This document shows positions 16,373 through 59,215 of a stretch of 64,000 bases of DNA, piece by piece. The notes beneath the pieces were generated by a model. It was not told the DNA's origin, ran no database searches, and was given only the letters and a program-made list of their open reading frames with translations. The translations under genes were made by a program, and so were the position numbers. Position 1 is the stretch's first letter, and each line of letters starts with the position of its first letter. The stretch is from Nocardioides sp. L-11A (lineage in GTDB: Bacteria > Actinomycetota > Actinomycetes > Propionibacteriales > Nocardioidaceae). The DNA lies in assembly GCA_029961745.1 (NCBI GenBank), contig CP124680.1:4216001-4280000 (forward strand), in the 5' to 3' direction.

Positions 16373-16496
16373 GGTTGTCTCCTCATGGGATCGGTCGGTC
16401 GATCTCGATGAGGGCACCCAGGCGGTCGATGCCGACTCGTCACTCCCTGGTGGTGGCCCACCTGCGCCAGTCGTGTGGCGTCAGTCTAGGTGAGGT

Positions 16497-42979: not shown

Positions 42980-44230
42980 TCAGAAGGAGTTGGGGTCCGC
43001 GATCACGGACTCCGGCACGGGGTGCCGGTAGAGCCGTGAGGCGTTCTCCCAGGTCACCTTGCGGATCTGCTCGGCGGGCAGTCCGCCGACGGAGTCGGCC
43101 ACGACCGCCTGCGTCCGGGGCCACAGCGAGTCGGAGTGGGGGTAGTCCTCCTCCACCATGACGTGGTCGACGCCGATCCGGTCGATGAGGGCGAAGGACG
43201 ACGGGTCCTCGACCGCGCAGAAGTAGAAGTTGCGCTGGAGCACCTCGGCGGGCGTCAGCTCGATGCCGTCCCAGGTGCCGTACATCTCGTGGTACGTCGA
43301 CATGTGGTCGAGTCGGTCGAGCAGGGCCGGCACCCAGCCGATGCCGCCCTCGGACATGCAGATCTTGAGGTCGGGGAAGCGGACCGGCAGGCGGGAGTAG
43401 AGCCAGTCGACGGTGGCGTGGATCGCGTAGGCGAAGAACAGCACGCCGACCACGTCCGGCGGGGCGTCCGCCGACGTCGAGGGCGAGGTGCCCGAGGAGC
43501 CGATGTGCAGGTTGACGACGGTCCCGGTCTCCGCGCAGGCCCGCATGATCGGGTCCCAGTGTCCGCTGTGCATCGACGGGAACCCCTGCAGGTGCGGGGC
43601 CTCGGAGAAGGTGACGGCCTTGAAGCCGCGCTCGGCGTTCTTGTAGATCTCCTGGGCGCCGACCTCGGGGTCGAGCATGAAGGGCAGCTGGCACGGGATC
43701 ATCCGGTCCGGGTACGCGCCCGACCAGGCCTCGATGTTCCACTGGTTCCAGGCACGCACCGCCGCCAGCGCGAGCTCCGGGTCCTTGGTCGTCTGCTGCA
43801 GGCGGACCCCGCCGAAGCCGGCGAGGAACGAGGGGAAGCACAGCGACGCGTAGACACCGGACAGGTCCATGTCCTTGATCCGGTGGTCGATGTCCCAAGC
43901 ACCCCGTCGCATGTCGGTGAAGCGGGCGGGCTCGAAGCTCCACTCGTCGATCGGCCGGCCCACCACGGCGTTGAAGCCGACATTGGGCAGCTCCTTGCCG
44001 TCGTACACCCAGACGTCGGCGCCGTCCTTGTCGACCACGCGGGGGGCCTGCTCGGCGAACTTGGCCGGCATCCTGCCCTCGAAGGTGTCGGGCGGCTCGA
44101 CCATGTGGTCGTCGACCGAGATCATCGGGAACCCGCGGTCGGCCTTGTCCGGCTCCGGCAGGAAGGTGACCTTGCCCTTCACCGCGTTGGTGAAGCTCGT
44201 GTCCTTCGTGAGCTCTTCGATGCTTGCCAT
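42980..44230 (-). CDS. Amidohydrolase_2 (ACMSD-like) metal-dependent hydrolase
   Basis: 416 residues, TIM-barrel amidohydrolase of the 2-amino-3-carboxymuconate-semialdehyde-decarboxylase-related group. Visible elements: metal-site start ISVDDHMVEPPDTF (D41, H42, E45), SLCFPSFLAGFGG, VTFSEAPHLQGFPSMHSGHWDPI, VVNLHIGSSGTSPS, FPDLKICMSEGGIGW and the terminal MVEEDYPHSDSLWP with the metal-binding Asp. Members decarboxylate or hydrolyse ring-derived acids in degradation pathways. First enzyme of the putative catabolic island, transcribed toward the MMPL terminator, 67 nt from the upstream alpha/beta hydrolase. Confidence 0.88.
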   Translation of the reverse strand: MASIEELTKDTSFTNAVKGKVTFLPEPDKADRGFPMISVDDHMVEPPDTFEGRMPAKFAEQAPRVVDKDGADVWVYDGKELPNVGFNAVVGRPIDEWSFEPARFTDMRRGAWDIDHRIKDMDLSGVYASLCFPSFLAGFGGVRLQQTTKDPELALAAVRAWNQWNIEAWSGAYPDRMIPCQLPFMLDPEVGAQEIYKNAERGFKAVTFSEAPHLQGFPSMHSGHWDPIMRACAETGTVVNLHIGSSGTSPSTSADAPPDVVGVLFFAYAIHATVDWLYSRLPVRFPDLKICMSEGGIGWVPALLDRLDHMSTYHEMYGTWDGIELTPAEVLQRNFYFCAVEDPSSFALIDRIGVDHVMVEEDYPHSDSLWPRTQAVVADSVGGLPAEQIRKVTWENASRLYRHPVPESVIADPNSF

Positions 44231-44297
44231 GCCTGACCTCTCTGGTTGATCGGGTCGATCGGGTTGATCGCGTGGGGTGCGGGGCGGCGCCCCGACG

Positions 44298-45140
44298 TCA
44301 GCTGGCCAGGAACTGGCCGACCAGCTGGTTGAACCTGTCGGGGTCCTCCTGGTGGGCGCGCTGCGCGCAGCCCGCCATCACGTGCAGGTCGCCGTGGGGC
44401 ACGCGCCGGGCGCCGTGCAGGATGCTGTCGAGTGGGAAGTCCGCGTTCTCGCGTCCCCACAGCAGCAGCGCTCGCTGGCGGACCCGGCGCGACTGGCTCC
44501 ACAGCGGTGGGTCGCTCTCGGCCGCCTCGAAGCTGCGCCGCACCGCACGCAGGCGTGCGATCGCTCCCGGCTGCACCGCGCGGGCGAGCTCGCTCTCGAC
44601 CAGCGCGTCGGTGATCGCCCCGGAGTCCGCGAACTGCGTCTCCAGCCACTCCAGCATGGTCATCGCCGTCGGCCGGGCCAGGAAGGCGGACAGCTTGCGG
44701 ACACCCTCGCTGTCGCGGAGACCGTCGTCGCCGACGACGAGCGTGCCCGGCGCCGCCAGGACCAGCCGGTCGACGAGCTCAGGGGCGTCGAGGGCGGCGC
44801 GCAGCGCGACCCAGCCACCCAGCGAGTGGCCGAGGACGTCGGCACGGTCGACGCCGAGCGAGCGGAGGGTGAGGCCGAGGCGCTGGACGGCATCGCCGGT
44901 GTAGTCGTCGGCGATCGGGACCTCCGCCGAGGCGCCGAACCCGGGCAGGTCCAGCAGGAGCACTCGCCGGCCGCGGGCGAACGCCTCGACCTGACCGGTG
45001 AACTCGCTGCGCCCGTCGGCGCCGGGGGCGAAGCCGTGCAGCAGCACGAGGGCCGGGCCCTGCCCCGCCTCCCACCCCCCGAGACCGCCGAAGGCGGCGC
45101 GGATCTCCGCGAGCGGACCGCTCGCGACCTCGCTCTTCAC
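44298..45140 (-). CDS. Alpha/beta hydrolase resembling meta-cleavage-product hydrolases, catalytic His replaced
   Basis: 280 residues from GTG 45140 (GGAG seven nt upstream; a GTG at 45194 is in frame but lacks this). Oxyanion LVLLHGFAPGADG, nucleophile Ser106 in VLGHSLGGW, and acidic segment LLLWGRENADFPLD match BphD/HsaD-type C-C hydrolases. At the end, where relatives have the catalytic His in a C-G-H-W block, this protein reads MAGCAQRAHQEDPDRFN: Gln at the usual position and a His three residues on. Either the nearby His substitutes or activity is lost. Same strand as the amidohydrolase, 67 nt apart. Confidence 0.83.
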   Translation of the reverse strand: MKSEVASGPLAEIRAAFGGLGGWEAGQGPALVLLHGFAPGADGRSEFTGQVEAFARGRRVLLLDLPGFGASAEVPIADDYTGDAVQRLGLTLRSLGVDRADVLGHSLGGWVALRAALDAPELVDRLVLAAPGTLVVGDDGLRDSEGVRKLSAFLARPTAMTMLEWLETQFADSGAITDALVESELARAVQPGAIARLRAVRRSFEAAESDPPLWSQSRRVRQRALLLWGRENADFPLDSILHGARRVPHGDLHVMAGCAQRAHQEDPDRFNQLVGQFLAS

Positions 45141-45224
45141 GTTCCTGCTCCGTCTCCGCGGGACCTGCCCGCACCTCGTCGTGGCGACAGACACAACTTA
45201 GAGAGCCGCAGCGCGTAGATCAAG

Positions 45225-45238
45225 ATCTTTATGAAGAT
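45225..45238. promoter_or_regulatory. AT-rich inverted repeat in the divergent promoter region
   Basis: ATCTT and AAGAT separated by TATG, in an AT-rich stretch that stands out from the GC-rich surroundings, between the alpha/beta hydrolase and the 45348 gene. Candidate GntR/FCD site; related AT-rich palindromes occur before the acyl-CoA ligase and luciferase-like genes. Confidence 0.4.
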
Positions 45239-45347
45239 TATTCGACCCTCCCTTCGTCAGCCGCCGCGGCACCTGCACCGCGGCCTTGCCAGGAGCCACC
45301 CAACTCATGTAGATCTTCCATAACATTGGACGTCGAGAAGGGGCTAG

Positions 45348-46154
45348 ATGCTTCCCGCACCGCAGATCGCCTTCCTCAGCCTGTCCCGGGCCCGCTCGCC
45401 GGTGCTGCACCGGGCGGTCAACGAGTGGCACCAGTTGGACCACCTGCCCGAGAACCGCGCGCTGCGGGGCGTGGCCTGGGGCGAGCGCTTCGTGCTGCCG
45501 CCGGCGGCCGCACACCAGGCGGTACGCCGGGGCGAGTTCGCCGACTTCCACTACGCCACGCTCTACTGGTTCGACGAGCCGCACGGCCCGGCCATCGGCA
45601 CCTGGGCCGACTTCGCCGAGCAGTCCTTCCGTGAGGGCCGGCGGCCGGACGTGGCCCTCGTCGACCGCGCGTACATGGACTTCTTCCGGCTCGTCGGGGC
45701 CGCGGCGCCATCGGGCGTCCGGATGAACGAGCGCGGGCTGGTCCACCGCCCCGGCACCGGGCTGGTGCTGATCGCGACGTCCCTGCCCGCGGGCCGGTCC
45801 CGCACGGACCTGCACCCGCGCTTCGCCTGGGAGCTGGACGAGCTGGTGCCGGCGCTCGCCGCCGTGCCCGGCGTGGGCGGGGTCTGGTGCCTGCAGAGCG
45901 ACGCGTCGCTGGCGCCGGCGACCTGGGCTTCGCGCGAGGCGGCACAGGGCACCGCCGAGGACCGGACCATCCGCCTGATCGTGGCCCGGACCGAGGTCGA
46001 CCCGCCCGCGGTCGTCCTCGACCGGATCCGCTCCGGGGAGCATGCCCCGCGCCTGCGGCCGCCGCTCTCGCTGCCGGGCCAGGTCGCCTTCCACGGCTTC
46101 CTGGAGACCATCGTCCCCTGGCAGTGGGACTGGTTCGACGAGGCGACGTCGTGA
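45348..46154 (+). CDS. Uncharacterised protein, possible tandem dimeric alpha-beta barrel
   Basis: 268 residues, soluble, no signal peptide. N-terminal half AVNEWHQLDHLPENRALRGV then WGERFVLPP resembles EthD/dabb-type folds (His-rich first strand-helix, W/F at the strand ends). The second half (VLIATSLPAGRSRT ... FHGFLETIVPWQWDWF) repeats a similar alpha-beta layout. Such proteins often assist or catalyse steps on unstable catabolic intermediates. GTGA overlap with the GntR regulator gene. Family assignment is tentative. Confidence 0.6.
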   Translation: MLPAPQIAFLSLSRARSPVLHRAVNEWHQLDHLPENRALRGVAWGERFVLPPAAAHQAVRRGEFADFHYATLYWFDEPHGPAIGTWADFAEQSFREGRRPDVALVDRAYMDFFRLVGAAAPSGVRMNERGLVHRPGTGLVLIATSLPAGRSRTDLHPRFAWELDELVPALAAVPGVGGVWCLQSDASLAPATWASREAAQGTAEDRTIRLIVARTEVDPPAVVLDRIRSGEHAPRLRPPLSLPGQVAFHGFLETIVPWQWDWFDEATS

Positions 46155-46963
46155 GCCCGGCCGGCCCCGGCGGCGCGCGTCCCGGCGGCGGCGTCCGCTT
46201 CGCCCGCCTGGCCGAGCAGATCGCCGACGACCTCCGGACCCGGCTGCTGGTCGGCGACCTGTCCGACGCCACCGAGCTGCCGGTCGAGGAGACCCTGCGC
46301 CTGCACTACGGCGTCAGCAAGCCCACCTTCCGCGAGGCGGTGCGCGTGCTGGAGGCCGAAGGGCTCATCACGGTGCGCCGCGGGGCGATCGGGGGAGCCG
46401 TGGTCCACCGGCCCGACGCCGAGCACGTCGCCTACAGCCTCGGGCTGGTGCTGTCCGGCCGTCGCGTCGACGTGACCGACGTCGCCGCCGCCATCCGGGC
46501 CGTCGAGCCTGCGTGCGCGGAGGCGTGCGCCCTGCGCGAGGACCGCGACCGCGAGGTCGTGCCGGTACTGCTGCGCCTGCACGAGCGCAGCGTCAAGGTC
46601 GTGGACAACCTCGTCGAGGTCACCGCGCTGTCCCGCCTGTTCCACGAGGCCATCGTCGACCTGTGCGGCAACCACTCGCTCTCGGTCCTGGCGGGCGCAC
46701 TGGAGTCCCTGTGGAGCTCGCACGAGTCGGCCTGGGCGAGCCGTGACGGGGACACCTCCACGATCCCCCGCGACCAGCGCATGCACGCGCTCGAGGAGCA
46801 CCGCGTCCTGATCGACCAGATCGCCGCCGGCGACGCGGCCGGCGCCCGGGCGACGTCCCTGCGGCACCTCGAGGTGTCGCAGAACTACCCGAGCCCCCAG
46901 GACGGGGAGATCCTCGTCTCCCCCGCCTCCGTGCGCTCCCGCTTCATCGCCGCGTCCTCGTGA
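46151..46963 (+). CDS. GntR/FCD-family transcriptional regulator, paralogue A
   Basis: 270 residues from GTG 46151, overlapping the upstream stop. Winged helix-turn-helix: FARLAEQIADDLRTRLLVGD, then HYGVSKPTFREAVRVLEAEG and ITVRRGAIGGAVVHRP. FCD effector domain with presumed metal ligands in SRLFHEAIVDLCGN, LEEHRVLIDQIAAGD and LRHLEV. Proteins of this group bind organic acids and repress degradation operons. Very similar along its full length to the regulator at 58412-59215. A GC hairpin terminator follows. Confidence 0.92.
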   Translation: MSPAGPGGARPGGGVRFARLAEQIADDLRTRLLVGDLSDATELPVEETLRLHYGVSKPTFREAVRVLEAEGLITVRRGAIGGAVVHRPDAEHVAYSLGLVLSGRRVDVTDVAAAIRAVEPACAEACALREDRDREVVPVLLRLHERSVKVVDNLVEVTALSRLFHEAIVDLCGNHSLSVLAGALESLWSSHESAWASRDGDTSTIPRDQRMHALEEHRVLIDQIAAGDAAGARATSLRHLEVSQNYPSPQDGEILVSPASVRSRFIAASS

Positions 46964-47006
46964 GTCCCGGGCTCCCTCGGCGCGGCGGTGCCGCGGGGCC
47001 CGGGAC
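46964..47006. terminator. Bidirectional terminator between GntR A and HD-domain gene
   Basis: Arms 46964-46975 and 46995-47006 (GTCCCGGGCTCC with GGGGCCCGGGAC, one mismatch) enclose a second perfect hairpin GCGGC-ggt-GCCGC at 46982-46994. Located between two convergent stops. Confidence 0.75.
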
Positions 47007-47015
47007 CGCGGCCCC

Positions 47016-47615
47016 TCAATCGGCGGGGCCGTTCCCCTCGATCGCCGGGTCCCCCCAGGCGTGGGGCTCTCGGGAGAAGACCTCCTGCAGCATCGGGAGG
47101 AAGAAGCTCAGCGGCAGGGTGTCGTAGTCGGGGTCGAAGGAGGGCGCGTCCCAGGCCGCGCAGAAGTGCGCGCAGGTGTCGAAGTACGGCGAGTCGCGGT
47201 AGCGCTCGCGGCTGTCGGTCGGGATCCCCATCGCCGCGCCGTAGTGGTAGGTCTGGAAGACGCCGTGGTGCTTGACGACCCACACGGACTCCTCGTCGAG
47301 GAAGGGCCGCAGGATGGCGGCCGCGACCTCGCTGTGGTTGTCGGGCGACAGGTCGTCGCCGATGTCGTGCAGCAACGCCGCGACGACCAGGTCGATCCGC
47401 GCCCCTTCCCGATGCGCCCGCGTGGCGCTCTGCAGCGAGTGGGTGTAGCGATCGACGCGATAGCCGTAGGTGTGACCCTGCATCGCCTCGAGCTGCCTCA
47501 CCAGGTTGGGCACCAGGTTCTCCGTCCGGTGCCGCGCCGCCTCGCGGGCGATCAGCTTGATCTCCTCGGGGGTCGCGTCGTCCATCGTGGTGAAGCTGAC
47601 CACGTCCATCGTCAT
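47016..47615 (-). CDS. HD-domain protein, PhnZ/TmpB-like residue pattern (possible diiron oxygenase)
   Basis: 199 residues from ATG 47615 with AAGGAG five nt ahead. HD core: H59 in DRYTHSLQSAT, H83-D84 in ALLHDIGDD, H94 in PDNHSEVAA, H116/H117 in VVKHHGVFQTYHYG, and an acidic motif WDAPSFDPDYD (D156, D161). The combination of an N-terminal GYRVDRYTHSLQ, a DNHSE His and SFDPxYD is what distinguishes the small HD mixed-valent diiron oxygenases (PhnZ, TmpB) from phosphohydrolases. Last gene of the importer operon, 37 nt after the second ATPase. Family of oxygenase is inferred; substrate unknown. Confidence 0.75.
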   Translation of the reverse strand: MTMDVVSFTTMDDATPEEIKLIAREAARHRTENLVPNLVRQLEAMQGHTYGYRVDRYTHSLQSATRAHREGARIDLVVAALLHDIGDDLSPDNHSEVAAAILRPFLDEESVWVVKHHGVFQTYHYGAAMGIPTDSRERYRDSPYFDTCAHFCAAWDAPSFDPDYDTLPLSFFLPMLQEVFSREPHAWGDPAIEGNGPAD

Positions 47616-47652
47616 GTCGACTCCTTCGCTCGTCTCTTCGGTGGGTGATCGG

Positions 47653-48459
47653 TCATCCGCGCAGCGCCCGGGGCACCGGTGTCGGTACGGCGGCCAACAG
47701 GTCGCGGGTGTAGGTCTCGGCAGGATCGCGCAGCACCTGCGCCACGGGCCCCTGCTCCACGACGCGACCGCTCCTCATCACGAGGACGTCGTCCGCGATC
47801 ACCTCCACGAGCGCGAGGTGATGGGTGATGAAGAGCAGGGCCAGCCCGAGCTCGCGTTGCATCGACGCGAGGAGCTCCAGCACCTGGGCCTGGACGGAGA
47901 CGTCGAGCGCGGCGGTCGGCTCGTCGCAGACCACGAAGTCCGGCTCGACGATCAGCGCGCGTGCGATGGCGACCCGCTGCAGCTGCCCGCCCGAGAGCTC
48001 GGCGGGGTGCCGTCGCCCGAAGCGGGCGGTCAGCCCGACCCGGTCCAGCATCTCGGCGGCCCGACGCGTGCGCTCCTCGGCGGAGCCGAGCTCGTGGACG
48101 ACCAGCGGCTCGGCGACCGAGTCGGCGATGGTCATCCGGGGGTTGAGGCAGCTGTAGGGATCCTGGAACACCATCTGCATACGCCGCCGCAGCTCGCGCA
48201 TCCGCGCCGCGGACTGGCGGCGCAGGTCGATCCCGTCGAACGTGATCGAGCCCCGGTCCGGCTCGATCAGCCGGAGCACCAGGCGCCCGACAGTGGACTT
48301 GCCGGCACCCGACTCGCCCACCACGGCGATCGAGCGGCCCTGGGCCACCGTGAAGGAGACCCCGTCGACGGCCGGCTGGACGGGTGCCGGGCGGCCGATC
48401 AGCCGACGGTTGCGGGAGAAGGTCTTGCCGAGGTCCCGTACCTCGAGCAGCGTCGTCAT
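47653..48459 (-). CDS. Oligopeptide/nickel-type ABC importer, ATPase 2 (DppF-like)
   Basis: 268 residues from ATG 48459 (overlaps the upstream ATPase stop, ATGA). Walker A GESGAGKST, QMVFQDPYSCLNPRMTI, signature LSGGQLQRVAIARAL, Walker B VVCDEPTAALD, switch His in FITHHLALV. Second nucleotide-binding subunit of the importer; no C-terminal iron-sulfur Cys motif is seen here, as is usual for DppF partners lacking it. Confidence 0.93.
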   Translation of the reverse strand: MTTLLEVRDLGKTFSRNRRLIGRPAPVQPAVDGVSFTVAQGRSIAVVGESGAGKSTVGRLVLRLIEPDRGSITFDGIDLRRQSAARMRELRRRMQMVFQDPYSCLNPRMTIADSVAEPLVVHELGSAEERTRRAAEMLDRVGLTARFGRRHPAELSGGQLQRVAIARALIVEPDFVVCDEPTAALDVSVQAQVLELLASMQRELGLALLFITHHLALVEVIADDVLVMRSGRVVEQGPVAQVLRDPAETYTRDLLAAVPTPVPRALRG

Positions 48460-49469
48460 CGCGCGATCCCCTCCAGCTGCAGGTCCGTGGCCCGGTGGCA
48501 CCGGACGTCTCGCCCCGCGCCGGCCACCGACAGACCGGGATGGCCGACGGCGCAGGCGACCGGCTGCGCGTGCGCGCACCGCGGCGCGAAGCGGCACTCC
48601 TCGCCGTGCGACCCGGCGGGCGGGATGGTGCCCGGGATCGACCGCAGCGGCTCACCGCTCCCCAGGACGGGGATGGAGCCCAGCAGTCCCTCGGTGTAGG
48701 GATGGCGCGGCACGAGGAAGAGCTCCTCGATCGCGCCGTGCTCGACGACCTCGCCGGCGTACATCACGGCGACGCGGTCCGCGACCTCAGCGACGACGCC
48801 GAGGTCGTGACTGATGAACAGCACCGCGAGCTCGGTCTCCCGCTGGATGTCGCGCAGCAGCTCCAGGACCCGGGCCTGCACCGTGACGTCGAGGGCGGTC
48901 GTGGGCTCGTCGGCGATGAGCAGTGAGGGACTGCTGCACAGCGCCGCGGCGATGGCCAGCCGCTGCGCCATCCCACCGCTGAACTGGTGCGGGTAGTCCC
49001 GGCTGCGGCGCTCCGGCTCGGGGATGCCGACGGCGTCGAGCATCTCGACCGCCTTGTCCCAGGCGGCCCGGCGGCCCAGGCCGAGGTGCACCCGGGCCAC
49101 CTCCGCGACCTGCTCGCCGGCGGTGTAGGCCGGGTTGAGGCTGCGCATGGGGTTCTGGAAGATCATCGCGACCTCACGGCCGCGCAGCCGCCGCAGCTCG
49201 CGCTCGGGCAGGCCGACCAGCTCGCGCCCCCGGAACCGGATCGAGCCCTCGGCGATCCGGCCGCCCTTGCGACCGGCGAGACCCAGGACAGCGGTGGCGG
49301 AGACGGTCTTGCCCGAGCCCGACTCCCCCACGAGGGCGAGGGTCTCACCACGGTCCAGGGTGAAGCTGACGTCCTCGACGACCCGCGTCCAAGACCTCCC
49401 GGTGCGGTACTCCACGGTGAGGCCCTCCACCTCGAGCAGGGGCGGGGAGGGCTGGGTCGGGTCACTCAT
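48456..49469 (-). CDS. Oligopeptide/nickel-type ABC importer, ATPase 1 (DppD-like)
   Basis: 337 residues from ATG 49469. Walker A GESGSGKTV, AMIFQNPMRSLNPAYTAG, signature FSGGMAQRLAIAAAL, Walker B LIADEPTTALD, switch His in FISHDLGVV. The C terminus carries the oligo_HPY extension with Cys residues (ECRFAPRCAHAQPVACAVGHPG ... VRCHRA pattern) that bind a 4Fe-4S cluster in DppD-type proteins. Overlaps the permease stop by eight bases. Confidence 0.93.
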   Translation of the reverse strand: MSDPTQPSPPLLEVEGLTVEYRTGRSWTRVVEDVSFTLDRGETLALVGESGSGKTVSATAVLGLAGRKGGRIAEGSIRFRGRELVGLPERELRRLRGREVAMIFQNPMRSLNPAYTAGEQVAEVARVHLGLGRRAAWDKAVEMLDAVGIPEPERRSRDYPHQFSGGMAQRLAIAAALCSSPSLLIADEPTTALDVTVQARVLELLRDIQRETELAVLFISHDLGVVAEVADRVAVMYAGEVVEHGAIEELFLVPRHPYTEGLLGSIPVLGSGEPLRSIPGTIPPAGSHGEECRFAPRCAHAQPVACAVGHPGLSVAGAGRDVRCHRATDLQLEGIAR

Positions 49470-51284: not shown

Positions 51285-51314
51285 CGGGGACTCAGCTCCT
51301 CGGCACGAGCCCGA

Positions 51315-52922
51315 TCACTTGACCATCGCGACGTTGCGGTAGCTGGGGAAGCCACTGCGCACCCAGGGCAGGTTCGGGACGTTGGCGATCTTCTCCGAGC
51401 GGACCCAGACCTGCTCGCCGCGCACGATCGGCGTCCACATGTCGTTGTCCGCCATCACCTTCCAGATCTCCCGGTACTTCGCGGCGCGCTCGTCGAGAGA
51501 CTTCGTCGGGTCGGCGGCCTCGGCCGGCAGGGTGCCGAGGACGTCACCGAAACCACGCGCCGCGGCGAAGCCGTCGGTCACGTAGTAGGAGAGGGTCGAG
51601 GCGGGGTCGGGGGCCGGCGAGGCGTTGATGACCTGGGCGTCGAGCTCGCCGCGCCGGTACATCTCGTCGATCTGCGCGAACGGGATGGACTGCAGGTCGA
51701 CCTCGATCCCGACCGCTCCGAGCTGGGTCTGCAGCGCCTGGGCCACCGGCTCGGCGGTGCTCCCGGTGGCCGCTGCGATGCTGATCTCGGCGCCACCGGC
51801 CTTCTCGACGAGCGCCTTGGCGGCCTCGAGATCGGGCTCCGGAGCGGCGAGATCGGGATCGGCGGCCCAGTAGTCCTCGGGATAGAACTGGGTCGCGGGG
51901 CTCGCGTTGCCCGAGAACAGGCCTTCGACGATCTCGGTGCGGTTGACGGCGAGCCCGATGGCCTCACGCACCTCGGGCTTGGCCAGGTCACCGCGCTCGG
52001 CGTTGACCATCAGGATCACCGGGGTGATCTGGGCGATCTTGTCGCCCTGCACAGCTCCCCGCTCCACGAGGGCGAGCGCCTCCTGGACCGGCGCCGAGCC
52101 GGAGATCTGGGCCACGTCGAGGGCGCCGGTCTGCACGCCGTTGAGGCGCGCCGCCTGATCGGCCACGGTGCGCACGACCAGCGTCGCGGCGTACGCCGTG
52201 TCCTCGTTCCAGTAGTCGTCGCTGCGCTCGAAGGTCACCTGCTCACCGGTCTTGACCTCGACCGGCACGTAGGGACCGGAGCCGGCGGTACCGGGGTCGA
52301 GGGCGAGCTCGTCGGCGCGCTCGGCGAGGGCCTTGGGGCTGACCATCATCCCGGCGTTGAGGGCGAAGGTGGCCGGCAGGTCGGCGCCCAGTCCGGGCAC
52401 CAGGTCGAGCCGGACGGTGTACGGGTCCTCGACCACGACCCGGTCGATCGGCGCCAGGGCCGCGACCAGGCTGCTGCCCTCCATCGTCTTGCCGCGCTCG
52501 ATGTTGGTCTTGACGACCTCGGCGTCGAACGCCGCGCCGTCGTTGAAGGTGACGTCGTCGCGGAGCTTCAGGGTGAGGCTGGACCCGTCCGCGGCGAACT
52601 CCCAGGAGGTGGCGAGCATCGGCTGCACCTGGTAGTCCGCGTCCATCTGGGTCAGGGTGTCGTAGATCAGGAAGGTGTAGGTGTTCTCGCCGATGTTGGC
52701 CTGCTTGGCCGGGTCGAGGGCGGAGAACGGGGACGGCGTGCCGACCCTGATGGTCGCGGTCCGGTCGTAGGTCGAGGGGTCCGCACTCGGGCCGCCGCCG
52801 TTGCCACCGGCGTCCTTCGACGAGCCCGAGCCGCACGCGGCCAGCGGCACCAGGAGCCCGACGGCGGCGACCGCCATCGCCGCCCGCCTCGTCACCCGGC
52901 TCACTCCAAGTCTGCGCGTCAC
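51315..52922 (-). CDS. ABC importer substrate-binding lipoprotein (SBP_bac_5)
   Basis: 535 residues from GTG 52922. Lipoprotein signal AAMAVAAVGLLVPLAACGSG, then a Gly/Ser linker and a cluster C (peptide/nickel/opine-type) binding fold: ALDPAKQANIGENTYTFLIY, LATSWEFAADGSSLTLKLRD, DVTFNDGAAFDAEVVKTNIER, YRNVAMVK C terminus. It captures the substrate outside and hands it to the DppBC-like channel. Ligand specificity unknown; the enzymes around suggest a catabolised small acid, amide or opine rather than peptides. Confidence 0.93.
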   Translation of the reverse strand: MTRRLGVSRVTRRAAMAVAAVGLLVPLAACGSGSSKDAGGNGGGPSADPSTYDRTATIRVGTPSPFSALDPAKQANIGENTYTFLIYDTLTQMDADYQVQPMLATSWEFAADGSSLTLKLRDDVTFNDGAAFDAEVVKTNIERGKTMEGSSLVAALAPIDRVVVEDPYTVRLDLVPGLGADLPATFALNAGMMVSPKALAERADELALDPGTAGSGPYVPVEVKTGEQVTFERSDDYWNEDTAYAATLVVRTVADQAARLNGVQTGALDVAQISGSAPVQEALALVERGAVQGDKIAQITPVILMVNAERGDLAKPEVREAIGLAVNRTEIVEGLFSGNASPATQFYPEDYWAADPDLAAPEPDLEAAKALVEKAGGAEISIAAATGSTAEPVAQALQTQLGAVGIEVDLQSIPFAQIDEMYRRGELDAQVINASPAPDPASTLSYYVTDGFAAARGFGDVLGTLPAEAADPTKSLDERAAKYREIWKVMADNDMWTPIVRGEQVWVRSEKIANVPNLPWVRSGFPSYRNVAMVK

Positions 52923-53161
52923 GTCTCCACCCTTCTGTGTGTCCTGCGCCGCGGCGCAGTGCTCGTCGATGACCGGCCCGGAATGGTCGCGGGCCCGGCC
53001 GACGCCCCGTCAACCTGTGACGGGCGCCACGTCCCGAGAGTAGGACTTTGCGATTCTCGAAAGCAACAGATCCCATGGATCTTTTAAAGGTTTTTCCGCC
53101 TCCGAACGGTCGTTTCGAACACTAGAGGCCCAAAATTTCTATCTAAAGTTCCAAAAGAAAA
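52923..53161 (-). promoter_or_regulatory. AT-rich leader of the binding-protein gene
   Basis: 239 bp without a gene between the binding-protein gene and the preceding 172-residue ORF. The stretch 53070-53160 is strikingly AT-rich for this genome and contains GGATCTTTTAAAGG and TTTCTATCTAAAG. This could house an internal promoter and GntR sites, so the importer and the enzyme genes may be separate transcripts of one regulon. No terminator hairpin was seen. Confidence 0.45.
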
Positions 53162-53680
53162 TCATGAGGCACCCAGCCGGTCCAGCACGCTCGCCACCTC
53201 GTCGACCGCACCGGTGAGGTCGGCAGCGGCCACGGCGTCCGCGAGGTCGCCCGCCCCGGCGTAGCGCAGCATCGCGGGCAGCCGGGTGCGCAGGCGCTCG
53301 AGGGTCCACGCCTGGGGGTCGCCCTCGGCGAACTGGTCGAACCGGACCACCTGGTTGGCCTGCTCCCCGTGACGCACGTAGTGGTAGTGGGGCTCGTTGT
53401 CGAAGCAGTCGAAGCGCAGCCACTCCAACCCGTCGGCCGTGCCGACGACGTGGATGCAGGCGCCGCCGTCGTCTATCCCGGTGTCCACCGTCTGGTCCGG
53501 CCGCCCGCGGTCGAGGGCGTTCGCGTTGATCGCCTCGTCGGACAGGTTGCGGGACTCCACGATGAAGGTGAGGGCGCCCGCAGGCACCTCGACGCAGCGA
53601 TCGGGCACCATCGGGATCGGCATCACCTCGTAGGTCCGGCCGAGCCGGTAGGCCTCCACACCGCTGGGGGACGTCGTCAT
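53162..53680 (-). CDS. Uncharacterised His-rich protein of the catabolic operon
   Basis: 172 residues from ATG 53680, overlapping the dehydrogenase stop (ATGA). Soluble; beta-rich N terminus (VPAGALTFIVESRNLSDEAI), a central NEPHYHYVRHGEQANQVVRFDQ with a cluster of His/Tyr, and an Ala/Asp-rich helical C terminus. Conserved histidines could bind metal, but no family is recognised. Coupled to ring/acid-processing enzymes, so an auxiliary or lyase role is plausible. Confidence 0.6.
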   Translation of the reverse strand: MTTSPSGVEAYRLGRTYEVMPIPMVPDRCVEVPAGALTFIVESRNLSDEAINANALDRGRPDQTVDTGIDDGGACIHVVGTADGLEWLRFDCFDNEPHYHYVRHGEQANQVVRFDQFAEGDPQAWTLERLRTRLPAMLRYAGAGDLADAVAAADLTGAVDEVASVLDRLGAS

Positions 53681-54648
53681 GCGAACTCCTTGACCGCGCC
53701 GGTGGGACCGGCGACCTGGTTGATGAGGGGGACGCCGTCGCGGAGACGGCACAGGTTCGTGGCGAACAGGTCGCCGGCCCGCGCGAGGGCCCGCGCCGGG
53801 ACGCTGGCGCAGTGGGCGGAGATCGCGATGCCCGGCGTACTCCACAGCGGACTCGACGGCGGCAGCGGCTCGACGGTCGCGACGTCGAGGGCCGCCCGGA
53901 TCCGGCCCGACGCGCAGGCCTCGGCCAGCGCGCTCTCGTCGAGCACGCTGCCCCGCCCGACGTTGACCAGCAGCGCGCCGTCGGGAAGCGCGTCGATCAT
54001 CGCGGCGTCCAGCAGGTGCGTGGTGCCCGGTACGTCGGGCAGCGCACAGACGACGTAGCGGGCACCGGCCAGCAGGCCCGCCAGCTCCCCCAGGCCACGC
54101 TGGTCGGCCACCCCGGGCAGCGGGTCCGCCGCCGGCGTGCGGCGGGCCACCCGGACCGTCATCCCGAAGGCGCCCGCCAGGTCGGCGACCGCCCGGTTGA
54201 TCGCACCGAACCCGACCAGCAGCAGCTCGGCGCCGCGCAGACCCTCGCCGTAGACCGGACGCCAGGTCCGCTCGGCCTGCGCGTCCCGCGCCTGTGCCAG
54301 CCGTTTGGCGTCGGCCAGGATCCGGGCCAGCACGAACTCGGCGATCTCGCCGGCCGCGGTGCCCGCAGCATTGCAGACCCGGACACCGGCCGCCGCGAGC
54401 TCCGCGACCGGCAGGTGCTCGACCCCCGTGCTGACCGCCTGGACGTACCGCAGACCGCTCAGCCGGCGCAGGTCGACCGCCGGCAGGGTCAGGCAGCTCA
54501 GCGCCCGGACGTCCGGCCAGGGGTACGCCGTATCGCTGGCGAGCGCCTCCGCGTCGTCCACCTGCCAGCCCGGCAGCTGCCGGCACAGGCGGTCGAGCTG
54601 GGCCGCGCGGACGCCCGGCCCGAGCAGGCCCGGATCCTCGGCCACCAC
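53677..54648 (-). CDS. D-2-hydroxyacid dehydrogenase (NAD(P)-dependent)
   Basis: 323 residues from GTG 54648; the start is uncertain because the frame is open upstream to a CTG touching the aldolase stop. Nucleotide-binding LLLVGFGAINRAVADLA, catalytic Arg in NVGRGSVLDESAL, Glu in ALDVATVEPLPP and His in AISAHCASVP. Interconverts a 2-oxo acid and a D-2-hydroxy acid. Lies between class II aldolase and the 172-residue protein in one operon, a natural pairing when the aldolase releases a 2-oxo or hydroxy acid. Confidence 0.88.
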   Translation of the reverse strand: MVAEDPGLLGPGVRAAQLDRLCRQLPGWQVDDAEALASDTAYPWPDVRALSCLTLPAVDLRRLSGLRYVQAVSTGVEHLPVAELAAAGVRVCNAAGTAAGEIAEFVLARILADAKRLAQARDAQAERTWRPVYGEGLRGAELLLVGFGAINRAVADLAGAFGMTVRVARRTPAADPLPGVADQRGLGELAGLLAGARYVVCALPDVPGTTHLLDAAMIDALPDGALLVNVGRGSVLDESALAEACASGRIRAALDVATVEPLPPSSPLWSTPGIAISAHCASVPARALARAGDLFATNLCRLRDGVPLINQVAGPTGAVKEFA

Positions 54649-54668
54649 GACCCGGCGAGGCGCGGCGC

Positions 54669-55472
54669 TCAGGCCAGCACCTCCGGCTCGGCCCGCAGCA
54701 GGCTGCGTACGGCACCGCCCCAGTAGACCTCGGCGGCCCGCTCCAGGAGCGAGGCCTTCATGCCGATCATGGCCGAGCGCGGCAGCTCCAGCGGGGTGCC
54801 CCCGGTGATCAGGACGTCGTACGCCAGGCGACAGGCCCGCTCGAAGGAGGCGGCGCGGTAGGTCGCCTCCACCGGGTCGGCGCCGGTGACGATCACGCCG
54901 TGGCTGGCGAGCACCGCGACCTTGGCGTCACCGATCTGCTCGGCGAGCTCCTGGGCACGCAGCGGGGTATCGATCTCGCCGCCGTACTCCTCCACGAGGA
55001 CCATGTCGTCGAGGTACATCGAGCCGGTCTGGTGGACCAGCTCGGGCAACCGGCCGAGGGCGGCCAGCACGCAGACGTGGTACGGGTGGTTGTGGACCAC
55101 GACCCGGGCGTCCTGCCGGGCGCGGTGCAGCTCGGTGTGGATGTGGATCGCCGGGGTGACGTCCCACCGGCCCCGCACCACGCGGGCGTCCTCGTCGACG
55201 GCGCAGATGTCGGAGGCGCTCACCTCGTCCCACCACAGGCCCCAGGGGTTGACCAGCATCTCGGTCTCCCCCGGGCGTTGCCAGGTGATGTGTCCCGCCA
55301 TGTTCTCCGAGAACCCCTCGCGGGCCAGGACCCGGAAGGCTGCCGCGAGGGTCTGCTCGTCGGTGAGCGGACCGCGACTGACGGGTGGCATCACCGACGG
55401 GGCCCACACCTCGAGGCCGCCCTGGCGCGGCGCTTGCGGGTCGTCATGGCTCTCGACGACGGCAGCGGACAT
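54669..55472 (-). CDS. Class II aldolase/adducin-family protein
   Basis: 267 residues from ATG 55472, with AGGAGG about eight nt upstream. Zn site: HTELHRARQDARVVVHNHPYH (Glu114, His116, His127, His129 region) and ASHGVIVTGADPVEATYRA. Related to fuculose-phosphate and ribulose-5-phosphate aldolases and to several decarboxylases, so cleavage of a C-C bond next to a hydroxyl or carboxyl is expected. Follows the acyl-CoA ligase by 36 nt. Confidence 0.9.
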   Translation of the reverse strand: MSAAVVESHDDPQAPRQGGLEVWAPSVMPPVSRGPLTDEQTLAAAFRVLAREGFSENMAGHITWQRPGETEMLVNPWGLWWDEVSASDICAVDEDARVVRGRWDVTPAIHIHTELHRARQDARVVVHNHPYHVCVLAALGRLPELVHQTGSMYLDDMVLVEEYGGEIDTPLRAQELAEQIGDAKVAVLASHGVIVTGADPVEATYRAASFERACRLAYDVLITGGTPLELPRSAMIGMKASLLERAAEVYWGGAVRSLLRAEPEVLA

Positions 55473-55507
55473 CGTTGTTCCTCCTGTTTGGGGCATGGAC
55501 GGCGAAC

Positions 55508-57133
55508 TCATCGGGGAGCCGGCTCCCGCTCGCGGATCTCCGCGATCCGGCGGCGCAGCTCGCCCTTGGCGACCTTCGCGCCGCTGGAGCGCGGCAGCTC
55601 CGGCACGATCTCGAGGCGCTCCGGGAACAGCTCTCGCGACACCCCCTGGCGCGCCAGGTGGTCGACGAGTCCGTCGAGCCCGAGCTCGTGGCCGGGGTGC
55701 AGCTCGGCGAAGAGGCAGACCCGCTCCCCCAGCACCGGGTCGGGCATCGGCACCGCGGCGGCATGGCGGATCGCGGGATGGCCGAGCGCATCGCTCTCGA
55801 CGACCGCCAGCGGGATGTTCTTGCCACCCCGGACGACGAACTCGGAGATCCGGCCGACGACGCTGAGGTAGCCCTCCTCGTCGACCTCGCAGATGTCGCC
55901 CATGAGCATCCAGCCGTCCGGGGTGAACAGCGCGGCGTTCGCCTCCGCGTCGCCGAGGTAGCCCAGCGAGAGGGCCGGGCCGCGGCAGGCGGGCTGCCCG
56001 CGTCCCGAGGAGGTCACCTCCGTCGTACCGTCGTAGAGCCGCACGTTCATCTCCGGGACGATCCGGCCCGCGGTACGCAGCCGCTTGCGCAGGGGGTCCG
56101 CGGTCGTCGTACCGCTCAGCAGCCCGGTCTCGTTGGAGCCGTAGAACTGCAGGATCCGGGCACCGGTGCGCTCCTCGAACTCACGGGCCTTCGCCTCCGG
56201 CACCGCCTCGCCACCGGTGAAGACGACCCGCAGGGAGCTGAGGTCGAAGTCGTCGAGGGCCGCCTCGGCCAGCATCATGATGAACTGGGTGCTCACGCAG
56301 CACAGCACCGTGACCCGGTGCTCCTGGATCGCCCGGGCGGCGGCGAGCGCACTGAACCGGGGCAGCACCACCGTGTGCGCGCCGAGCTTGGCCGGCGTGA
56401 CGTGGGAGGTCCACAGCCCGAAGCCGAAGGGCGCCGGGACGATCGACAGCATCACCTCGCCCTCCCGGAGCTCGCCATGGGCGACCGCGCGGGTGTGGAA
56501 GTAGTGCCAGCGGTTCTGGGTGTGCAGCACGGCCTTCGGCAGCCCGGTCGTGCCCGAGGTGGAGTTGATCAGGTAGAGCCCGTCGGGGTCCGCGACGACG
56601 TCGGGCAGTCGCTCGACCGGCCGGACCGGCTCCGGCGCACCCGGGGAGCGGGTCGCGATCCGGCCGTCCTCCAGCTCGACCGTGAGGTGCCGGGGCGCGA
56701 TCCCCCGGTCCGCGAGCTCCGCGACGAGGTCGGCGGCGGGGCGGGCGTCGTACCCGGGCGGCGTGAGCAGCACCTCACAGTCACTGCGGCCCAGCAGGTG
56801 GGCGATCTCGCGGACCCCGGCCTTGCCGCCGAGGCCGACGACGGTCGCACCGAGCCGCTCGACAGCGACGAAGGCGAGGTGGATCTCGATCCCGTCGGGC
56901 ATGCAGACCGCCACCCGGTCGCCCGCGCCGACCCCGGCGCCGGCGAGGACCCGGGCGAGCGCGGTCGCCTCGGCGTCGAAGCGCGCCCAGGACAGCGACG
57001 CGTCCCCGCTGGTCCACGCGGGCCGCTCCGGCCACCGGGCGGCGTTGCGGGCGACCGCCGCGCCGACGGTGTCGTCGCTCCACCAGCCCCGGCGGCGGTA
57101 CTCCGCGGCGAGCTGCGGGTCGATCAGACTCAT
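55508..57133 (-). CDS. Acyl/aryl-CoA synthetase (AMP-binding enzyme)
   Basis: 541 residues. AMP-binding P-loop STSGTTGLPKAVLHTQ, LQFYGSNETGLLSGTT, hinge GWMLMGDICEVDEEGYLSVVGR, catalytic Lys near GAKVAKGELRRRI. It adenylates a carboxylic acid and forms its CoA thioester. First gene of the minus-strand operon; the ATG sits inside a TCATATGA palindrome. Resembles acetate/benzoate/crotonobetaine-type ligases; acid unknown. Confidence 0.92.
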   Translation of the reverse strand: MSLIDPQLAAEYRRRGWWSDDTVGAAVARNAARWPERPAWTSGDASLSWARFDAEATALARVLAGAGVGAGDRVAVCMPDGIEIHLAFVAVERLGATVVGLGGKAGVREIAHLLGRSDCEVLLTPPGYDARPAADLVAELADRGIAPRHLTVELEDGRIATRSPGAPEPVRPVERLPDVVADPDGLYLINSTSGTTGLPKAVLHTQNRWHYFHTRAVAHGELREGEVMLSIVPAPFGFGLWTSHVTPAKLGAHTVVLPRFSALAAARAIQEHRVTVLCCVSTQFIMMLAEAALDDFDLSSLRVVFTGGEAVPEAKAREFEERTGARILQFYGSNETGLLSGTTTADPLRKRLRTAGRIVPEMNVRLYDGTTEVTSSGRGQPACRGPALSLGYLGDAEANAALFTPDGWMLMGDICEVDEEGYLSVVGRISEFVVRGGKNIPLAVVESDALGHPAIRHAAAVPMPDPVLGERVCLFAELHPGHELGLDGLVDHLARQGVSRELFPERLEIVPELPRSSGAKVAKGELRRRIAEIREREPAPR

Positions 57134-57265
57134 ATGAATATTCTAGATCTTCTAGTGACCTCGGTCAATCGCGAATCCGACGATAGGCCCCAGAACGCGC
57201 TCCGGTCGGGCCATCCGGACAGAAGCGAGCGGGGAGGGGGCTTCCTGGAGGCTGTCGCTCGCAGG

Positions 57266-57283
57266 GAATCTTTCATATGATTC
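57266..57283 (+). promoter_or_regulatory. AT-rich inverted repeat before the luciferase-like gene
   Basis: GAATC and GATTC flank TTTCATAT; the TCATATGA core recurs at the acyl-CoA ligase start (about 57130-57137). Located in the divergent region controlled presumably by one of the GntR regulators. Confidence 0.4.
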
Positions 57284-57333
57284 AGTGGTGCCCCGGCGGG
57301 ACGCCCGCTCCCGCCGGCCGAGAAGGAGCCCGC

Positions 57334-58317
57334 ATGAGCCGCGCGAGGATCGGCCTGCTCTTCGACGTCCGCAACCCGGTGCCCTGGGCGCGTCCCTGGC
57401 CCGAGCTGCTCGCCGGGACGCTCGACCTCGTCGTCGAGGCCGAGCGCCAGGGCGCCGACGCGATCTGGGCGACCGAGCACCACGGCTTCGAGGACGGCTA
57501 CCTGAGCCAGCCGCTGACCTTCCTGGCGGCGGCCGCCGCCCGGACCAGCCGCGTGCGCCTGGGCACCGGCGTCCTGCTGGCCGCGCTGCGTCACCCCCGC
57601 CACGTGAGCGAGCAGGCCGCGCTCGTCGACAACCTCAGCGACGGGCGGCTCGAGCTCGGCGTCGGCGCCGGCTACGCCCCCACGGAGTTCGCGACCTTCG
57701 GTCGCGACCTCGGACGCCGGATGTCCTTGGCCGACCAGAGCATCCGCGACCTGCGGTCGGACCTGTGGGACGGCCGCCTCCGGCCGCCGCCGGTCCAGGC
57801 CAGGGTCCCGCTGTGGCTCGGGTACCAGGGGCCGCAGGGAGCGCGGCGCGCCGGCCGACTCGGCGTCGGACTGCTCTCCCCCGACCCGCGGCTGCTGGCG
57901 CCGTACCGTGAGGGCCTGGCCGAAGGCGGGCACCCGGCCGACACGGCGGCGATGGGTGGCCTGGTGCCGCTCGTGCTGAGCAGCGACCCGGAGCGCACCG
58001 CCCGCCGCCTGGCACCGCACTACGCGCACCAGACGCGCACCTACGCCGGCGCCCGGCATTCCGGCGGCGAGCCCGTCCCGCCGGCGAGCCCGGAGGACCT
58101 CGACGCGCTCGTCACCACGATGCTGGACCCGTCCGGCCGGGGCCTGCGGGTCGTCACGGTGGACGCGGCCGTGCGGGAGCTGGGAGCCGTCCTCGACGCC
58201 GCTCCCATCCGCCACCTCTACTTCTGGGCCACCGTGGCCGCCATGCCCGAGGACCTGGTCCACGAGCACCTCGCCCTCACCCTCGGCCGGCTGGCTCCCC
58301 GACTTCGGGCACGATGA
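57334..58317 (+). CDS. LLM-class flavin-dependent oxidoreductase (luciferase-like monooxygenase)
   Basis: 327 residues from ATG 57334, preceded by GAAGGAG. Luciferase-like barrel: IGLLFDVRNPVPWARPW, then DAIWATEHHGFEDGYL, RVRLGTGVLLAALRHPRHVSEQ, DNLSDGRLELGVGAGYAPTEFATFG. The HHGFEDGY segment and lack of F420-specific start suggest an FMN-type monooxygenase, but F420 use is not excluded. Divergent from the acyl-CoA ligase and upstream of GntR B, so part of the catabolic island. Confidence 0.85.
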   Translation: MSRARIGLLFDVRNPVPWARPWPELLAGTLDLVVEAERQGADAIWATEHHGFEDGYLSQPLTFLAAAAARTSRVRLGTGVLLAALRHPRHVSEQAALVDNLSDGRLELGVGAGYAPTEFATFGRDLGRRMSLADQSIRDLRSDLWDGRLRPPPVQARVPLWLGYQGPQGARRAGRLGVGLLSPDPRLLAPYREGLAEGGHPADTAAMGGLVPLVLSSDPERTARRLAPHYAHQTRTYAGARHSGGEPVPPASPEDLDALVTTMLDPSGRGLRVVTVDAAVRELGAVLDAAPIRHLYFWATVAAMPEDLVHEHLALTLGRLAPRLRAR

Positions 58318-58411
58318 CCCCGACAATGCATGCGCAGCACCACGTGTCGTCGTACCGTCAGCCGGTACGAGGCTCGGGTCGACCACCAGGGCGACCCCCA
58401 GAGAGGAAGCC

Positions 58412-59215
58412 ATGACCCCTCCAGGCAATCCGGCACCCGCCGGCGGCGTGCGTTTCGCGCGCCTTGCCGAGCAGATCGCCGACGACCTGCGGACCCGGCT
58501 CCTCGTGGGCGACCTCGCCGAGGCCACCGAGCTCGCTGTCGAGGAGTCGCTGCGTGGTCATTACGCGGTCAGCAAGCCGACCTTCCGCGAGGCGATGCGC
58601 GTGCTCGAGGCGGAGGGACTGATCACCGTCCGGCGCGGCGCCATCGGCGGGGCCGTCGTCCACCGCCCCGACGCCGAGCACGTCGCCTACAGCCTCGGCA
58701 TGGCCCTCGCCGGCAAGGGGGTCAGCATCACCGACGTCGCCCAGGCGCTGCGCGAGGTCGAGCCCGCCTGCGCCGCTGCCTGCGCCGGCCGCGCGGACCG
58801 GATGCAGGAGATCGTCCCCATCCTCTCCCGTCTCCACGAGCGCTCGGTCAAGGTCGTCGACAACCTCGTCGAGGTGACCGCGCTCTCCCGGATGTTCCAC
58901 GAGACCCTGGTCGATCTGTGCGGCAACCAGTCGCTGGTGATGCTGGCCGGGGCCCTGGAGTCGCTGTGGAGCTCCCACGAGGCTGCCTGGGCCCACCGCT
59001 CCGCCGACACCGTGGACATCCCCCGCGCGGAGCGCCTCGAGGCCCTCGACGAGCACCGCGAGCTGATCGACGCGATCGCCGACGGCGACCCCGAGGCGGC
59101 ACGCAAGATCGCCCTGCGGCACCTGCTCGTCGCCCAGATCTACCCCGGCGACCAGATCGACGTCCTGATCTCGCCGACGTCGGTCCGCAAGCGCTTCACC
59201 GACTCCTCCGGCTGA
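58412..59215 (+). CDS. GntR/FCD-family transcriptional regulator, paralogue B
   Basis: 267 residues. N-terminal wHTH FARLAEQIADDLRTRLLVGDL, then HYAVSKPTFREAMRVLEAEG and ITVRRGAIGGAVVHRP; FCD with SRMFHETLVDLCGNQ and DEHRELIDAIADGD, LRHLLV. Nearly the same sequence, block by block, as paralogue A at 46151-46963, with divergent N-terminal and C-terminal tips. The pair probably arose by duplication and may sense the same or successive intermediates. Confidence 0.92.
   Translation: MTPPGNPAPAGGVRFARLAEQIADDLRTRLLVGDLAEATELAVEESLRGHYAVSKPTFREAMRVLEAEGLITVRRGAIGGAVVHRPDAEHVAYSLGMALAGKGVSITDVAQALREVEPACAAACAGRADRMQEIVPILSRLHERSVKVVDNLVEVTALSRMFHETLVDLCGNQSLVMLAGALESLWSSHEAAWAHRSADTVDIPRAERLEALDEHRELIDAIADGDPEAARKIALRHLLVAQIYPGDQIDVLISPTSVRKRFTDSSG

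Follow-up and report, generated by a model that had tools for sequence, protein, structure and literature searches.

A putative horizontally acquired GntR-type regulon for organic acid catabolism in Nocardioides sp. L-11A

Introduction

What kind of compound, and what chemistry, would call for a gene island in which a CoA ligase, an aldolase-fold protein, an importer and two predicted metal enzymes stand together? Such an island, 16 kb long, occupies positions 42980..59215 of a 64-kb window (the whole stretch of DNA analysed, whose coordinates are used below) of the soil-type Nocardioides (in the GTDB sense) sp. L-11A, the genome of which is a single contig of 5.68 Mb. An initial annotation made from the sequence had described a catabolic island that matched no known pathway. 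This still holds for the open-licence literature on DUF7700, DitZ, TqaM/NovR and the gene set, in which we found neither the operon already assigned to a pathway nor its combination of enzymes, although the kind of system, an acid-catabolism regulon with CoA ligation, is already known. We propose, with roughly even confidence, that the island was acquired horizontally and is a catabolic regulon under GntR control, serving a single imported organic acid, which would be activated with CoA, hydroxylated and cleaved by non-heme-iron enzymes. The computed results behind this proposal are the genes present, the position of the island as an insert between an MMPL gene and fbiC, a shared operator-like site, a core of three genes, and oxygenase-type ligands in two of the proteins.

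Results

A probable ten-gene operon and its conserved core

Gene finding, with Pfam and NCBIfam scans of the window proteins, gave 16 island genes. Ten of them lie on the minus strand from 57133 to 47016 and encode an acyl/aryl-CoA ligase (ACS), a class II aldolase/adducin-fold protein (ALD), a D-2-hydroxyacid dehydrogenase (HADH), a DUF7700 protein, a solute-binding protein (SBP), the importer subunits dppB, dppC, dppD and dppF, and an HD-domain protein (HD). This is the set initially annotated, and its family names are backed by the scans with the corrections given below. Neighbouring genes overlap or are less than 40 bp apart, the sole exception being a 239-bp gap ahead of SBP; since this gap holds an operator-like site of its own, the operon may contain an internal promoter.

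We compared the island with related loci in other genomes (G codes denote genomes and L codes fetched loci; G000 is L-11A itself and G014 is Nocardioides carbamazepini CBZ_1). ACS (55508..57133, minus strand; PF00501, 226 bits; matching aryl-AMP ligases in the PDB), ALD (54669..55511, minus strand; PF00596) and an ‘amidohydrolase’ (amidoH; 42980..44230, minus strand; PF04909), which is a predicted non-heme diiron oxygenase of the PtmU3/AibH2 type, form a core that was found in ten clusters, namely G000, G014, G584, G431, G107 and five loci of a single genus (the g12 loci, L121 and L123–L126). Five of these clusters include HD and four include DUF7700; HD, HADH and DUF7700 occurred together in four. 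Outside the conserved core, the clusters vary in importer type and in whether they have the luciferase-like oxidoreductase (LLM), the second GntR regulator and the dabb-like gene. The G431 locus contains GntR, ACS, ALD, amidoH, HD, a branched-chain-type importer, HADH and DUF7700, and the G107 locus contains ACS, HD, a carrier of the major facilitator superfamily (MFS) type, ALD, amidoH and GntR, with no HADH or DUF7700 match (carriers beyond the query set were identified by inspection). The exchange of Dpp-, branched-chain- and MFS-type importers suggests that one acid class enters by different carriers.

A close amidoH relative (E ≤ 1e-100) was found in 19 of 396 phylum-sample genomes, our own included. 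Twenty amidoH-centred loci, several of which share a genome (four come from G341), were fetched from the 33 places listed; three others were already in the set and ten were left out. ALD and amidoH were neighbours in 15 of the 20 fetched, comprising all 11 with amidoH identity of at least 59% and four of the nine at 47–52%. One of the 15 (L127) has another amidohydrolase-fold gene between the two, and in four (L119 and L127–L129) ALD is only 24–29% identical. The five g12 loci add ACS at 54–57% identity, and two of them GntR at 51–52%. The HD proteins found at 58% identity or more (G000, G014, G584, G431 and G107) were all inside core clusters, and ALD was seen in none of the 14 HD-centred loci lacking a close amidoH (L066–L079, 6–20 kb each). 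With the block itself in CBZ_1 and G584 and the core in other genomes, this search of other actinobacteria bore out the view that the genes are grouped beyond chance.

Insertion between MMPL and fbiC

The island sits between an MMPL gene and fbiC. The block was also found in CBZ_1 (86–98% identity), without LLM and the dabb-like gene, and in G584 (69–94% identity), without gntR1. DUF7700, used as an island marker, was detected in four of 215 genus genomes, two of 58 near relatives and seven of 396 phylum genomes, our own being counted each time. Three of the four genus genomes (G000, G014 and G584) carry the block, and the fourth (G495) has a distant DUF7700 alone, at 30% identity.

Both flanks were searched in 16 genus genomes. 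MMPL and fbiC were separated by approximately 20–105 bp in five of them (G004, G008, G009, G010 and G013, the MMPL of G013 being 43% identical), which corresponds to an empty site, and by 14.7 and 16.5 kb in two island-bearing genomes. As the flanks are adjacent in several island-free relatives, we conclude that the block is an inserted island. A spacing of 1.8–4.3 kb in three others (G001, G005 and G011) indicates that the junction may be an insertion hot spot. The flanks were far apart in G003 and G007 and on separate contigs in G015, and an fbiC match was absent at the limit used in G002, G006 and G012. Neither flank was present within the 29 kb fetched around the G584 block. A tRNA was not found in the window, nor did any island gene belong to an integrase family in Pfam, and the two island borders share no exact repeat of at least 11 bp. 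As a separate observation, our genome has a second fbiC copy (G000:C1:384871-387441) that is 95% identical to the island-side copy (window 59311-61911), and the fbiC of the sister species is less similar (89%) than this second copy, suggesting recent duplication or gene conversion.

A shared operator-like site

Comparison of the promoters of G000, G014, G584 and G431 revealed an AT-rich palindrome, RAYCWT-N4-AWGATY. This motif is present at the ACS/LLM, MCP/dabb and importer promoters of the island, and related loci in four other genomes have it as well. For this reason the island looks like one GntR-type regulon under a shared operator-like site, as judged from sequence. The earlier description, of catabolic genes that form a dedicated and probably co-regulated unit and include their own importer and a CoA-ligation step, is supported. 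The sites (not assigned to a strand) are at 45224..45239 and 45312..45327 in the MCP/dabb divergent promoter, at 53078..53093 upstream of SBP and at 57267..57282 in the ACS/LLM divergent promoter, with a weak fifth site at 57137..57152 beside the ACS start. The exact pattern occurs in the window at 45224 and 57267, each on both strands, and in none of 100 shuffles; in the whole genome it occurs at 17 places, 15 of them outside the island, giving 21 strand matches against 11 for the reversed control.

A matrix built from three G584 sites and one G431 site placed its five best window scores within the 981 intergenic bases of the island: 26.1 (57267), 22.7 (45312), 22.1 (45224), 18.9 (53078) and 14.7 (57137). 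The first four score higher than any of 20 simulated first-order sequences (maximum 18.5), and the fifth lies within the simulated range. In the reverse direction, a matrix built from four window sites found sites in G014, G584, G431 and G107, the best score among ten control loci being 16.5. The G431 site (25.0) lies between gntR and ACS, and the G107 sites (18.3 and 17.5) lie upstream of ALD and gntR; a match of 17.0 at L022:18931, outside the gene cluster, was also above the control maximum.

The regulators themselves are both of the FCD type (PF00392 and PF07729) and on the plus strand. gntR2 (58412..59215) is present in all three Nocardioides copies of the block, and we saw no operator-like site upstream of it; gntR1 (46190..46963, start uncertain) appears to be an extra copy, placed beside the gntR2 clade in the tree. 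The proposed bracket of paralogous regulators is thus real in so far as the two are 74% identical and enclose the ten-gene operon and LLM, but the bracket, with gntR1 as one end, does not include amidoH, the MCP-type hydrolase or the dabb-like gene.

amidoH resembles diiron oxygenases

The best PDB sequence matches of amidoH were DitZ (244.6 bits), PtmU3 (125.9), 4dzi (66.0; a protein without assigned function), 8sm7 (63.5) and the AibH subunits (32–37). Its ligand set, D40, H42, H242, E294, D362 and H365, corresponds to the D-x-H, H, E and D-x-x-H of PtmU3 and AibH2. An alignment of 30 loci, one of which (L020) yielded no segment, showed all six ligands in 34 of 35 segments, the remaining one not being covered at the first two. 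D367, two positions past the last histidine, is the acidic marker of binuclear members and was acidic in 34 of 35. All seven residues were present in 33 of 35 segments from 29 loci, the exceptions being two distant segments of 28–29% identity. One study lists the ligands of AibH2 and reports that only binuclear members conserve the additional acidic residue (PMC7782822), and another describes PtmU3 as a diiron monooxygenase that hydroxylates a diterpenoid-CoA and LynB7 as an oxidative decarboxylase (PMC10127204). Taken together, amidoH looks like a diiron oxygenase of the PtmU3/AibH2 type rather than an amide hydrolase; amide hydrolysis was considered and is disfavoured by the metal-ligand set. 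Beyond the general Nik/Dpp/Cnt family of the importer, nothing was found that points to the amide or opine substrates once suggested.

Two other explanations of the island were weighed. In the first, the family names would be correct, and an ordinary operon for acid or amide degradation would encode a metal hydrolase, a sugar-type aldolase, an HD phosphohydrolase and an MCP hydrolase. The Pfam names fit this, the metal-binding histidines of ALD are kept, and actinomycete hydrolases of the amidohydrolase superfamily do exist, such as the piperine hydrolase PipM (PMC12753220). With the ligand set of amidoH on the other side, we regard an ordinary operon as fairly unlikely. Alternatively, the island could be a small biosynthetic tailoring cassette, in line with the characterized relatives PtmU3 and LynB7, which make natural products, as do NovR and TqaM. 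Against this, polyketide synthase, non-ribosomal peptide synthetase and terpene synthase families are absent among the 16 genes in Pfam, a solute-binding importer stands inside the operon and is swapped for other carriers in relatives, and amidoH–ALD pairs on Rhodococcus megaplasmids adjoin catabolic-type genes. A biosynthetic role is accordingly improbable.

HD has a predicted oxygenase fold

The model of HD (47016..47615, minus strand) was confident (pLDDT 91), and PhnZ, TmpB and MIOX were structural matches well above all others, placing the predicted fold nearer to these three than to other HD proteins. The ligands H59, H83, D84, H94, H117 and D156 (H...HD...H...H...D) were invariant in 17 of 17 aligned sequences, two of 18 relatives having been dropped for internal stops. 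By predicted fold and ligands, HD is therefore a predicted oxygenase of the PhnZ/TmpB/MIOX type. The PhnZ/TmpB-like residues first noticed in it were confirmed for ligands and fold, but not for the features that define phosphonate enzymes. The YxxE substrate loop of PhnZ and TmpB, described in PMC8177086, is absent before the first ligand histidine in all 17 sequences, the position of PhnZ E27 being Y52 here. HD scores 29.6 bits against the NCBIfam TmpB model (cut-off 300) and 24 bits against PhnZ by sequence alone, and no 2-oxoglutarate (2OG) oxygenase partner was recognized among the 16 island genes in Pfam, the dabb-like protein having no family match.

We also weighed a PhnY/PhnZ- or TmpA/TmpB-type route for phosphonates, in which HD would be a C–P bond oxygenase. 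PhnZ and TmpB are its best matches in fold and ligands, and weak NCBIfam matches to Phn-HD and TmpB exist; however, besides the missing loop and partner, the best models for the importer are non-phosphonate and such a route has no place for the CoA ligase and amidoH of the core. We rejected it as the main explanation, on account of the loop and the partner, and consider it highly improbable; the hint of a phosphonate-like substrate in the initial annotation was accordingly weak.

Several HD relatives were seen in other settings. Two more are in our own genome off the island, at 40% and 42% identity (G000:C1:723805-724341; 5284019-5284468). In L067 (G356; 10027-11876) a 52% relative adjoins, by eye, a BBOX/TmpA-type 2OG oxygenase-like gene, a possible TmpA/TmpB-like pair. 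In L086 (Phaeobacter inhibens plasmid pDOK1-1-2; 8001-10483) a 52% relative occurs with sterol desaturase-family and PanB-like genes, and in L085 (Cupriavidus sp. KK10 plasmid p1; 9893-11495) aldolase-fold and HD genes are neighbours, with no amidoH match in the surrounding 20 kb.

ALD and DUF7700

The nearest solved relative of ALD is TqaM (77 bits), followed at 58 bits by NovR with several aldolase-named proteins between. The alignment shows that the metal-binding histidines are retained. If E73 is taken as the catalytic glutamate of fuculose aldolase (FucA), a count backwards that starts at the HxH motif puts Ala or Gly in its place, so that this glutamate seems to be missing. NovR and TqaM carry out O2-dependent decarboxylations in biosynthesis. 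By analogy ALD may also use O2, the case being weaker than that for amidoH or HD.

The unknown His-rich protein of the initial annotation is present and now has a family, DUF7700 (53162..53674, minus strand; PF24777, 117.7 bits). Its model (pLDDT 87.7) had no confident structural match in the PDB. Distant DUF7700 proteins were noted in L023 (G351; 9880-11267) and L021 (G249; 2482-3375), beside TfdA/TauD-like oxygenase and amidohydrolase-like genes by eye, and also as two domains in one frame; the family may thus be linked to oxygenase genes elsewhere too.

Remaining island genes

HADH (53677..54648; PF02826, 133 bits) and the importer genes are on the minus strand: SBP (51315..52922; family 5, PF00496, 222 bits), dppB (50343..51284; PF00528 and PF19300), dppC (49462..50346; PF00528 and PF12911), dppD (48456..49469; PF00005 and PF08352) and dppF (47653..48459; PF00005), the two last being ATPases and the two before them permeases. 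The nearest NCBIfam models of SBP, NikA, GsiB and CntA, were all below cut-off. SBP is probably a lipoprotein, as its N-terminus has a lipobox-like LAAC motif nearby.

LLM (57334..58317, plus strand; PF00296, 143 bits) ties between TIGR04027 (FMN) and TIGR03619 (F420) at 106.3 bits each. Its start is probably the ATG at 57334 rather than that at 57277, because the latter falls within the operator-like site 57267-57282. The product of 45348..46154 (plus strand), an accessory gene with a 70% match in G584, had no Pfam or NCBIfam match at E 0.001, leaving its dabb-like label unconfirmed. A ZMP/ZTP riboswitch (16409-16484, minus strand; 47.2 bits, above the gathering score) lies elsewhere in the window.

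The MCP-type α/β-hydrolase (44298..45140, minus strand, with the start at 45140 or 45194) is HsaD/BphD-like and scores 191.5 bits against the HsaD NCBIfam model, the cut-off being 400. It raises a narrower form of the proposed regulon, in which the substrate would be an isoprenoid or alicyclic acid (a terpene or steroid fragment) and this hydrolase a ring-cleavage partner. HsaD as its closest relative fits, and PtmU3 comes from a diterpenoid system, as perhaps does DitZ, to judge from its name. By eye, HsaA-like, extradiol-dioxygenase-like and MCP-like genes are near the G107 locus, and flavin reductase-like and acyl-CoA dehydrogenase-like genes are at the G584 locus. However, a ring-cleaving dioxygenase is absent from the island, a Dpp/Nik-type importer is unusual for hydrophobic acids, and no MCP match was found in the G431 locus. 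We consider this narrower form unlikely.

Discussion

From the gene set we infer the catalytic steps, their order and the nature of the substrate as follows. The acid would enter via the Dpp/Nik-type importer, or via another carrier in relatives, and ACS would convert it into the CoA ester. On the precedent of PtmU3, amidoH would hydroxylate the acyl chain, probably at the β-carbon, where branching or a ring may stand in the way of ordinary β-oxidation. ALD would then break the adjacent C–C bond, either by a retro-aldol reaction or by O2-dependent decarboxylation as in NovR/TqaM, and HD would use O2 to cleave a C–C bond next to a hydroxyl group. HADH would interconvert 2-oxo and 2-hydroxy acid, the MCP-type hydrolase and LLM may widen the route, and either the acid itself or its CoA ester probably acts as the inducer.

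A number of observations weigh against this proposal. With two mismatches allowed, the palindrome gave 62 strand matches in the window against 10.9 expected, most of them outside the island, and is thus non-specific; as the sites had been picked out visually before any matrix was built, the statistic is partly circular, supportive rather than independent. The core of the g12 loci stands without HD, importer or operator in all five, the best operator scores there (12.4–15.7) being below the control maximum. ALD is absent near amidoH in five of the 20 amidoH-centred loci, and plasmid pRWAY01 has a 53% amidoH copy with no ALD annotated beside it. Metal ligands alone do not prove oxygenation, no ferredoxin or reductase family was found among the 16 island genes in Pfam, unlike in the AibH2 system, and PtmU3 and LynB7 are biosynthetic, not catabolic. 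The role of ALD is the least certain.

The general outline of the initial interpretation was therefore right, but some of the enzyme roles it gave were wrong. We further put forward, as a tentative idea that we hold to be rather doubtful, a new aerobic strategy for blocked acids, in which amidoH would β-hydroxylate the CoA ester in place of acyl-CoA dehydrogenase and hydratase, ALD would break the C–C bond, and HD, a non-phosphonate enzyme with a different substrate gate, would remove the next carbon, with DUF7700 assisting. Three oxygen- or metal-dependent enzymes would then be hidden under hydrolase or aldolase names across various actinobacteria. With this analysis, an operon that lacked an assignment gains a proposal open to testing, in which the core, the site for the regulator and the metal chemistry are defined. 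The amidohydrolase-fold diiron oxygenases would gain a catabolic member acting on CoA esters, and the HD oxygenases a branch outside phosphonates. Annotations in other genomes would also be corrected, given how many of the phylum-sample genomes hold close amidoH relatives. The sister strain N. carbamazepini CBZ_1 is a reported ibuprofen degrader (PMC10076411), and nothing here ties the island to that activity.

Among known systems, PhnZ and TmpB differ from HD in the loop, the partner and the NCBIfam scores given above, and HD, unlike PhnZ/TmpB/MIOX-type enzymes, is found alongside CoA-ester enzymes. NovR and TqaM are among the nearest solved relatives of ALD and share its metal histidines, but match it at no more than 58–77 bits. 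PtmU3, AibH1H2 and LynB7/BarH share with amidoH the ligand set and the acidic residue two after the last histidine, and PtmU3 takes CoA esters as substrates, which a partnership with ACS would call for. On the other hand, PtmU3 has 356 residues (PDB chain) compared with 416 for amidoH, which is set apart by its place in a catabolic-type regulon with ALD and without recognized AibGF-like electron carriers nearby. The aib cluster of Rhodococcus wratislaviensis C31-06 (2-aminoisobutyrate catabolism), as far as the accessible part of its description goes, is likewise an actinobacterial catabolic cluster starting with an amidohydrolase-fold diiron hydroxylase. It differs in having an amino acid permease, a LysR regulator and a ferredoxin with its reductase, and that part does not describe CoA ligase, aldolase-fold or HD genes for it. 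Closest in arrangement are modules on the Rhodococcus megaplasmids of DMU1, MSA14, DSM 44186 and ZPP, in which amidoH (48–49%) is directly ahead of an aldolase-fold gene together with an importer. The importer there is of the branched-chain type, and HD and DUF7700 are neither annotated nor matched. CoA enzymes are nearby, with a P450 module in two of the four and a 2-oxoacid:ferredoxin oxidoreductase in two of the four, the latter of which fits a 2-oxo acid intermediate.

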